From Marinovum algicola (lineage in GTDB: Bacteria > Pseudomonadota > Alphaproteobacteria > Rhodobacterales > Rhodobacteraceae): a stretch of 64,000 nucleotides of DNA. The stretch lies in assembly GCF_900109145.1 (NCBI RefSeq), contig NZ_FNYY01000004.1, forward strand, positions 124,001 through 188,000, given 5' to 3'. The stretch's first letter is position 1, and each line of letters begins with the position of its first letter. Under the pieces are notes generated by a model that saw only the letters and a list, made by a program, of their open reading frames with translations, ran no database searches and was not told the DNA's origin. The position numbers and the translations under genes are program-made. Shown here piece after piece: positions 30,325 through 43,163 of the stretch.

Positions 30325-33657
<3,333 letters not shown>

Positions 33658-40784: not shown

Positions 40785-41042
40785 TCAACCCTTTGACAAA
40801 TCGTCGAACATCCGGGCGTTGCGACAATAGCCGGGGCTCGCGGCCACCGGGGCTGCCTGCCGGTCGAGCCATCTGGCGCAGTCGTCCGGCCGGGGGCAAT
40901 TGGTACAGCTCAGCACCGCATCGGCCACCGCTTCGCTGCTGATCCGTCCGCGCAAGACCTGCTCTTCCATATCGAGCCCCCGCGCTTCGGCCATCCGATC
41001 CATCAAGATCGCATGGCGCTTGATCTTCTGTGGTGACTGCAT
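40785..41042 (-). CDS. DUF6455 family small four-cysteine protein
   Basis: 85 residues: a helical first half (ILMDRMAEARGLDMEEQVLRGRISSEAVADAV in pieces) and then four cysteines, Cys46-x2-Cys49-x5-Cys55-x17-Cys73 in SCTNCPRPDDCARWLD and YCRNARMF. The pattern could bind zinc or an iron-sulfur cluster, or form disulfides. DUF6455 is a Rhodobacterales-type family with no known role. AAGGGGA lies 5-6 bases before ATG 41042; the frame is open to 41294 but only this start has a Shine-Dalgarno. The promoter upstream has an FNR-type site at a position fit for activation. Confidence 0.85.
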   Translation of the reverse strand: MQSPQKIKRHAILMDRMAEARGLDMEEQVLRGRISSEAVADAVLSCTNCPRPDDCARWLDRQAAPVAASPGYCRNARMFDDLSKG

Positions 41043-41067: not shown

Positions 41068-41116
41068 CGGCCCCAGCCTAGCAGGACGGGTCGCCTCGGC
41101 CTTTGATCTGGGTCAA
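41068..41116 (-). promoter_or_regulatory. FNR/FnrL-type box with -10 element ahead of DUF6455
   Basis: TTGATCTGGGTCAA at 41103-41116 differs from TTGAT-N4-ATCAA by a single base. On the minus strand, a -10-like TAGGCT (41080-41075) starts 29.5 bases from the box centre, which puts the box at -41.5 relative to a start near 41068, the usual class II FNR position. The DUF6455 ATG is at 41042. On the other side the box is 97 bases ahead of the OmpA gene. Confidence 0.6.
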
Positions 41117-41213: not shown

Positions 41214-43163
41214 ATGACCAGATCGACATTGATGAAAAGCACGGCCATTGTGCTGTCTCTCGCGCTGGCCGTTCCCACGGTCGCCCCGGCACAAAGCGGC
41301 GACGTGTCAGCCTTTGCAGCCGGCGAAATGCCCTCGGCCGAGCAGATCGACGAGATGGGCCGCGACATTCTCGAACAGCTTGGCGTGCTGATCGGCCTTG
41401 ACCGCGATGCCGCGCGGGCGATGGAGCTCGAAGAGCTTCGCGTCGCGATCAAGACGGAGCTTGGCCTGCCGGTCGACGAGGCCGCAGAAAGCGAAGAACC
41501 GCCGGCCGAGACGGCGGAAGTCACGGCCGAGGGCGCCGCCGAAGTGACCGCCGAGGCCGCCGAGGAGACCGCCGCAGAGGTCGAGGGCGCGGCCGAAGCA
41601 GCTGTCGAAGAAGCCCAGGACGTCGTCGAGGAGGCGGCGGACGCGGCAGAAACGGCCAGCGAAGAGGCCGGCGAGCAGACCGAAGAGCTCCGCGAGGCGC
41701 TGGAAGACGCGCAGGCAGAGGAAGCGCCGGAGGTCGAACAACAGATCGAAACCGAAGCGGAGGCCGAGGCCGAAGCGCAGGTCGAAACCGAAACCCAGGT
41801 CGAAAGTGAGGCCGAAGCCGAAGCGGAAGCGGAGACCGAGGCGCAAGCTGAGACCGAGACGCAGGCAGAGACCTCCCTCGGTGGCCTGGCCGGTATCAAC
41901 GACATCGACGCCATGAGCCGCGATCAGCTTCTCGCGCTGGCCTCCGACCTGTCGCTCGACCTCGGAGCCACGGAAAATATGTCCGAGGCCGAACTGCGCA
42001 CCGCGGTGAAGGCCGCTCTGGGCATGGAGGTGGAGGTGGTCGAGCCCGCCCCGGAAGAAACCGAGCCGGACACGACCGTTGCCGACAGCACACCGATGGC
42101 GGCCGAGGATGATGCCGCCACCGCCGAAGGCGAGGTCGTGGTGGAGACCGTGACCGAGGCCGACGTCCGCTCGAGCAGCGAGGAATTCGGCAGCGACGTC
42201 ATCGTCGAACAGCAAGCCGAGCAGCGCGGCACCCGTGAAGACGACGATGACGATGATGATCGCGGCTTCAGCAATGCCGAAACCGCCGCCGCCCTGGGGC
42301 TTGGCGTGCTGGCGCTGAGCCAGATTCTCGGCGACGCCGACGAGGTTGTGTCCAACTCGGGCGACCGGGTGGTGGTGCGGCGCGGCAACGATCTTCAGGT
42401 CATCCGCGATGATGACGTGCTGCTGCGCCAGCCCGGCTCGGAGGTCGAGACCCGCAACTTTGCCGACGGCTCGTCGCGTGTGGTCGTCACCCGCCCCGAC
42501 GGCAGCCAGGTGATCACCGTGCGGGCCGCCGATGGCACCGTGGTGCGCCGGGTGCAGGTGCGTGCCGACGGCCGCCGCATCGTGCTTTTCGACGACACCG
42601 AGGAAGCGGCAGAACCAGTCGATGTGACCACCCTGCCAGAGCCGCGCCGACAACAGCCCGTTACCGTCACCTCTGGCGATCGGGCCGCATTGGAAGCCGC
42701 GCTGAACGCGCAGCTGGCCGCCGATGTCGACCGCCGCTTTTCGCTCAATCAGGTCCGCTCGATCCGTGAGGTCCGCCACCTGATGCCCGAGGTCACGCTT
42801 GATGCGGTCAACTTCCAAACCGGCTCTGCGGTGATCCAGCCGGGCGAAGCCGAGGAACTGGCCGATCTGGGCAGCCAGCTTGCCGATTTCCTTGCCGCCA
42901 ATCCCGACGAGCTGTTTATCGTCGAAGGCCACACCGACACCGTGGGCGACGCCGCCTATAACCTCGCTCTGTCGGACCGCCGGGCGGAATCGGTGGCGCT
43001 GGCGCTGGTGGAATATTTCGACGTGCCGCCGGAGAACCTGATCATCCAGGGCTATGGCGAAAGCGATCTACTGGTGCCGCGTGAAGGCCCCGAGCGCGCC
43101 AACCGCCGCGCCACCGTGCGTCGGATCACGCCACTGCTGCACCGCAACGCGCGGCTCGACTGA
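41214..43163 (+). CDS. Large OmpA-family protein with acidic repeat region
   Basis: 649 residues. Signal peptide 1-27 (LSLALAVPTVAPAQ). Then helical motif MELEELRVAIKTELGL (70-85), a highly acidic Glu/Ala-rich stretch (about 89-220, with tandem EAEAEAE and ETETQ units), a second similar helical motif MSEAELRTAVKAALGM (256-271), an Asp run (seven Asp near 345), a short hydrophobic stretch AAALGLGVLALSQIL, beta repeats with VVVTRPDGSQVITVRAADGT, and a C-terminal OmpA peptidoglycan-binding domain (NFQTGSAVIQPGEAEEL, VEGHTDTVGDAAYNLALSDRRAESV). The order resembles alphaproteobacterial OmpA proteins with acidic extensions. AAGAGG is 7 bases before ATG 41214. Confidence 0.88.
   Translation: MTRSTLMKSTAIVLSLALAVPTVAPAQSGDVSAFAAGEMPSAEQIDEMGRDILEQLGVLIGLDRDAARAMELEELRVAIKTELGLPVDEAAESEEPPAETAEVTAEGAAEVTAEAAEETAAEVEGAAEAAVEEAQDVVEEAADAAETASEEAGEQTEELREALEDAQAEEAPEVEQQIETEAEAEAEAQVETETQVESEAEAEAEAETEAQAETETQAETSLGGLAGINDIDAMSRDQLLALASDLSLDLGATENMSEAELRTAVKAALGMEVEVVEPAPEETEPDTTVADSTPMAAEDDAATAEGEVVVETVTEADVRSSSEEFGSDVIVEQQAEQRGTREDDDDDDDRGFSNAETAAALGLGVLALSQILGDADEVVSNSGDRVVVRRGNDLQVIRDDDVLLRQPGSEVETRNFADGSSRVVVTRPDGSQVITVRAADGTVVRRVQVRADGRRIVLFDDTEEAAEPVDVTTLPEPRRQQPVTVTSGDRAALEAALNAQLAADVDRRFSLNQVRSIREVRHLMPEVTLDAVNFQTGSAVIQPGEAEELADLGSQLADFLAANPDELFIVEGHTDTVGDAAYNLALSDRRAESVALALVEYFDVPPENLIIQGYGESDLLVPREGPERANRRATVRRITPLLHRNARLD

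Follow-up and report, generated by a model that had tools for sequence, protein, structure and literature searches.

A widely conserved candidate FnrL switch at a class II position upstream of the DUF6455 gene of Marinovum algicola

The window, a 64,000-nucleotide stretch of the Marinovum algicola genome, carries on its minus strand a gene for an 85-residue protein (40785-41042, stop included) with cysteines at positions 46, 49, 55 and 73 (Cys46, Cys49, Cys55, Cys73); the coordinates and residue numbering given in the first-pass annotation are right. The product matches Pfam DUF6455 (PF20056) over nearly its full length (E 1.3e-30; 105.7 bits against a cut-off of 23.7), and no NCBIfam family matches it at E up to 1. 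Upstream, at 41103-41116 on the same strand (centre 41109.5), lies an FNR/FnrL box that reads TTGACCCAGATCAA towards the DUF6455 gene and is directly followed by AGG. The plus-strand letters, TTGATCTGGGTCAA, differ from TTGAT-N4-ATCAA by one mismatch, in agreement to the base with the earlier description of the site. A -10 element, TAGGCT, occupies 41075-41080 (minus strand), and transcription is predicted, from the -41.5 geometry alone, to start at 41068 (minus strand), which would leave 26 nt between the class II start and the ATG at 41042. A divergent gene of the OmpA family (41214-43163, plus strand; Pfam PF00691), whose long middle part is rich in Glu and Ala, sits between the M48 and DUF6455 genes; its ATG at 41214 is 97 bases past the box, and it is judged to be a neighbour outside the element.

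With up to two mismatches allowed, the 64-kb window holds 22 box matches where 11.9 would be expected, and, apart from the site itself, one match with a single mismatch lies at 31115. Since many near-matches are expected in such a stretch, weight was put on a comparative test of relatives. DUF6455 genes were taken from samples of genomes of the family, the class and the phylum, and 80 more loci came from a scan of named genomes; these are the best 80 of 165 confirmed relatives, so that close relatives of the window's gene are over-represented in this set. Loci L072, L073, L074 and L076 overlap others and were excluded. Relatives often carry tandem arrays in which two to five DUF6455 genes lie nearly adjacent (e.g. 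L025-L053, L082, L083), whereas the window holds a single copy.

The first genes of arrays, or leaders, numbered 194, of which 182 are distinct once 11 duplicates (same first 60 residues) and one gene with less than 200 nt upstream (the second gene of L099) are removed. Up to 300 nt upstream of each was searched with a relaxed pattern, TTGAY-N4-RTCAA, that permits Y and R at the inner positions. Boxes scoring 9 or 10 out of 10 were found for 172 of the 182; shuffled sequences gave 2 of 182. The first-pass annotation had made its proposal depend on a box conserved upstream of orthologues, and the proposal withstood this comparison. Among leaders of at least 60 bits the fraction is 164/167. The family sample has the box before 93 of 96 leaders, and 87 of its 88 genomes have at least one boxed leader; in the named-genome set (the best 80 of 165 relatives) all 70 leaders kept are boxed, and in the remaining genomes, outside both of these sets, 9 of 16. 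Strict scoring, with at least 8/10 within 250 nt, finds the box before 102 of 113 first-in-array genes, compared with 8 of 112 control stretches taken 750-1000 nt upstream and 5 of 81 internal array genes (120 nt scanned). The distance from box centre to start codon is mostly 55-90 nt.

When 164 upstream regions were aligned on the box alone, blind to any -10 element, a second motif appeared at +29.5 from the centre (T 41%, A 67%, nnn, T 75%). This is the slot in which TAGGCT begins in the window, its first base 29.5 from the box centre. With the window's locus excluded, the core NANNNT stands at exactly +29.5 in 100 of 163 relatives, at +28.5 in 24 and at +30.5 in 14, and at each of the remaining listed offsets from 22.5 to 66.5 in 1-11; 63 of the 163 loci have no -10 core in the exact slot. 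Scored with a matrix built from the 163 other loci, the window's own slot reaches 5.7 bits, a value attained by 0.3% of random slots. The -41.5 class II layout with a -10-like hexamer, as first described from this one locus, is thus borne out and its slot is conserved in relatives. We conclude from these alignments that a conserved, putative class II (-41.5) promoter faces the DUF6455 gene. A chance match as the origin of the box is ruled out by its conservation, the shuffles, the control stretches and the class II slot counts. The same profile of 164 loci has 95% G at a position 8.5 bases past the box centre, which falls outside the known FNR box; in the window this G, beyond the classical box, is at 41101 on the minus strand.

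The surroundings of the box vary. Of 192 related loci, 146 have an M48 peptidase homologue like the one near the window's gene. A tblastn search with both ends of the OmpA gene (E 1e-6) found it in none of the 192, not even in a locus from the window's own genus. Among three plasmid regions examined, the box precedes DUF6455 in two (Thioclava, L263 and L264), and the third (L265) has no box with the pattern used. Other recurrent ORF families listed for the named-genome loci have zero or one TTGAY-N4-RTCAA box each, with the exception of ORFs antisense to M48 that start near the DUF6455 box, which are boxed in 13 of 28 cases. Coding constraint was also considered as a reason for the box and was rejected. 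Upstream of some DUF6455 genes lies an ORF that we take, from its sequence, to be YigZ-like, and the box overlaps the end of this ORF by just 4 nt, stop codon included, in 22 of 22 loci; elsewhere, with the nearest upstream ORF of a recurring family taken as reference, 38 boxes fall clear of it and 5 within it, 18 of these 43 ORFs being antisense to M48.

Since the box stays with DUF6455 across several contexts and the OmpA gene was found in none of the related loci, we assign the site to the DUF6455 gene as its putative regulatory element. That it should serve OmpA, alone or alongside DUF6455, is most improbable. The 14-mer itself is nearly symmetrical, and the distance to the OmpA ATG given in the first-pass annotation is correct; the role in OmpA expression at which that distance hinted is not supported. 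The OmpA-facing slot on the plus strand scores -3.9 bits, a value reached by 74% of random slots, so that no -10 element is recognised there, the extra G at +8.5 is missing on that side, and the box is kept with DUF6455 in relatives while none of the 192 related loci yielded the OmpA gene.

FnrL is encoded in the window's 5.4-Mb genome (G000) as L002, which scores 454.6 bits against the NCBIfam equivalog NF045989 (cut-off 300) and is the sole protein of the genome above that cut-off. Of the remaining CRP-type proteins, two match the HTH model almost completely and over the Pfam cut-off, but reach far less than 300 bits with the FnrL model (L004, 73 bits; L003, 24 bits); three more HTH matches above the Pfam cut-off are partial. 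The pattern TTGATN4RTCAA occurs at 14 distinct sites (17 strand hits) in the 5.4 Mb, against one for the reversed pattern. The window's exact 14-mer also adjoins fnrL itself (G000:C22:549164), and a third genomic copy of TTGATCTGGGTCAA lies at G000:C22:262362-262375 (L252). The locus combines three features expected of class II activation by FnrL, namely a box one base off the consensus, a centre at -41.5 with a conserved slot, and the regulator encoded in the same genome.

At family level 115 of 198 sampled genomes carry DUF6455, at class level 19 of 385 and at phylum level 29 of 398; family members are counted in the latter two samples as well. None of 14 control genomes has it. Of the 115 DUF6455-bearing family genomes, 113 also encode FnrL. 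Among FnrL-positive family genomes 113 of 170 have DUF6455 and 57 do not; among FnrL-negative ones it occurs in 2 of 28, both incomplete drafts (84% and 71%). Over the 198 family genomes the co-occurrence gives a Fisher P of 1.8e-9, a value that ignores shared ancestry. A link to phototrophy was dropped, as pufM and DUF6455 show no association in family genomes (P 0.66). For nosZ, a marker of nitrous oxide reduction, an association with DUF6455 exists over all family genomes (P 0.0002) and, weakly, within the FnrL-positive ones (P 0.015).

The nosZ figures bear on the identity of the regulator. Another CRP/FNR-type protein, such as Dnr, FixK or a divergent paralogue, could act at the box, with NO or nitrogen oxides as the signal instead of oxygen. 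A passage of PMC2908626 states that FNR, FixK and DNR recognise very similar target sequences, and the genome's second FNR-like protein, L004, has an N-terminal C-x2-C; the nosZ association points the same way. We nevertheless regard such a regulator as improbable, because L004 and L003 score far under the FnrL cut-off and because nosZ of the type scanned is found in just 43 of the 115 DUF6455 genomes, and not in the window's, whereas FnrL is found in 113. FnrL itself, rather than a relative, would very probably be the protein that reads the box.

Boxes also occur beyond the family. Upstream of 40 DUF6455 domains outside it (up to 400 nt; matches below 15 bits skipped, several of those kept weak, two of them below 16 bits, and two loci giving two domains each), a perfect box was found for 20 and a score of 9 for 3 more, leaving 17 without a box of 9 or better; shuffled controls reach 9 or 10 in 0.8%. 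The phylum's other classes supplied two domains, one scoring under the Pfam cut-off, and each has a perfect box. Of 9 stand-alone DUF6455 copies in family f131, 6 are preceded by a perfect box. Five genomes of this family (L231-L234, L060) also have DUF6455 as the C-terminal end of a GT4 glycosyltransferase, as judged by a Pfam scan of two of the fusions and the ORFs of all five genomes; each of the five holds a stand-alone copy as well. Before the five fused genes the best box is at most 7/10 in every case, in short stretches of 111-168 nt.

We propose that the DUF6455 gene is switched on in low oxygen by FnrL acting as a class II activator, and we put the probability of this reading at about 0.85. 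Oxygen sensing by FNR-type proteins is established elsewhere. As oxygen falls, FnrL would keep its [4Fe-4S] cluster, dimerise and bind 41103-41116; from -41.5 it would contact RNA polymerase at the -10 element TAGGCT and turn on the gene. That the site is bound and the gene induced in vivo appears highly probable. The evidence that DUF6455 is a low-oxygen response gene, as the first-pass annotation had suggested, can be summarised as (i) boxes before 172 of 182 leaders; (ii) -10 cores in 100 of 163 slots; (iii) FnrL in the genome; (iv) co-occurrence with FnrL in the family; and (v) boxes outside the family. Given a candidate FnrL switch at an activating position, and the same switch in well over 100 relatives, the gene is very probably part of the low-oxygen response. 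This regulatory half of the proposal is supported about as well as sequence alone allows.

The closest known systems are the FnrL regulons of Rhodobacter sphaeroides, R. capsulatus and Dinoroseobacter shibae, which share the regulator family and the type of box. Published lists of FnrL targets include hypothetical genes, as seen in parts of PMC4263372, PMC4634722 and PMC9603517, and one hypothetical FNR target in Table 1 of PMC2908626 has no locus given for R. sphaeroides. Some of these could be DUF6455 genes. The name DUF6455 does not occur in the passages of PMC4263372, PMC4634722, PMC9603517 and PMC2908626 that deal with these targets; the literature covered also took in PMC5398030, PMC9603854, PMC5741622 and PMC4505428. 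A full-text literature search returned DUF6455 solely in PMC11819568 and did not return PF20056, and broader searches yielded nothing on the family; expression or binding data for a gene known as DUF6455 in the Rhodobacterales group were not found in the papers searched. As the hypothetical targets may include DUF6455 genes, "not described" refers here to the family name in the open-access papers searched and not to every locus tag. PMC11819568 lists a DUF6455 transcript of Azospirillum as raised by 1.67 log2 under ethylene (adjusted P 0.049), in a section that draws no connection with FNR. The A. brasilense gene concerned, OH82_RS00065, is among the top ethylene-responsive genes listed there, other entries being ccmD and an anchor subunit of DMSO reductase.

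DUF6455 is, on the comparative evidence, a widely conserved candidate gene of the FnrL regulon. A protein family without an assigned function would thereby gain a firm place in a low-oxygen regulon (87 of 88 genomes, nearly all of separate genera). The link to FnrL, together with the lack of association with pufM and the weaker association with nosZ, hints at a general role for the product in the change between aerobic and anaerobic conditions.

The product is predicted to be small and all-helical, with five helices in a confident model (pLDDT 93.6, built from an alignment of 10 sequences). A search of solved structures with the alignment gave three matches at E 1 to 2.4, which is chance level; Foldseek gave a best E of 4.1, and a second comparison produced two rows, with Z of 2.9 and 2.1. 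With no convincing solved relative in these searches the fold is unplaced, and that neither Wbl nor any other Fe-S fold turned up among the matches proves nothing. The window's cysteines are arranged as C-x2-C-x5-C-x17-C. By alignment column, Cys46 is conserved in 194 of 194 sequences, Cys49 in 182, Cys55 in 193 and Cys73 in 193 of the same number; by conservation alone, the protein has the four potential ligand cysteines of a [4Fe-4S] cluster. Across 348 genes (duplicates between sources kept) the core is C-x2-C-x5-C in 323, C-x4-C-x3-C in 21 and neither in 4.

A small helical protein with C-x2-C-x5-C and a fourth cysteine recalls both WhiB1 (Wbl; Cys37/40/46) and the FNR sensor segment. In E. 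coli FNR, Cys20, Cys23 and Cys29 have the x2/x5 spacing too. Since this spacing is the same in WhiB1 and E. coli FNR, an oxygen- or NO-labile Fe-S cluster is favoured by analogy, and we give even odds that the product would hold such a cluster rather than zinc. The promoter reading could also be right for a small structural or adaptor protein whose cysteines bind zinc or form disulfides, a prospect we consider real though below even. Four-cysteine zinc sites are common among small proteins, zinc would be bound by the very same residues, the spacing is shifted to C-x4-C-x3-C in 21 of the 348 genes, and one family has the domain joined to a glycosyltransferase. Pointing away from zinc, although suggestive only, are the tie of expression to an oxygen-responsive box and the fact that x2/x5 is also the spacing of Cys37, Cys40 and Cys46 among the [4Fe-4S] ligands of WhiB1 (Cys9, Cys37, Cys40 and Cys46, in a passage of PMC5741622).

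No sequence or fold match was found between DUF6455 and Wbl or the FNR sensor segment. Unlike WhiB1 (C-x27-C-x2-C-x5-C), DUF6455 has its fourth cysteine C-terminal of the core, and the window's protein does not contain the GVWGG motif of Wbl; for these two reasons it is not filed as a Wbl protein. If the Fe-S reading holds, FnrL-dependent expression would yield a small helical protein with four nearly invariant cysteines and a likely oxygen- or NO-labile cluster, which might then act in low oxygen as a small partner or regulator that responds to redox state, a role we put forward tentatively. By analogy with Wbl, and speculatively, DUF6455 proteins may be unrecognised small [4Fe-4S] sensors of O2 or NO in proteobacteria, unrelated to Wbl in descent, made under FnrL, multiplied in tandem arrays with altered spacing and, where fused to a glycosyltransferase, perhaps able to gate it. 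All 21 genes with the C-x4-C-x3-C core are the last member of an array of two or more.
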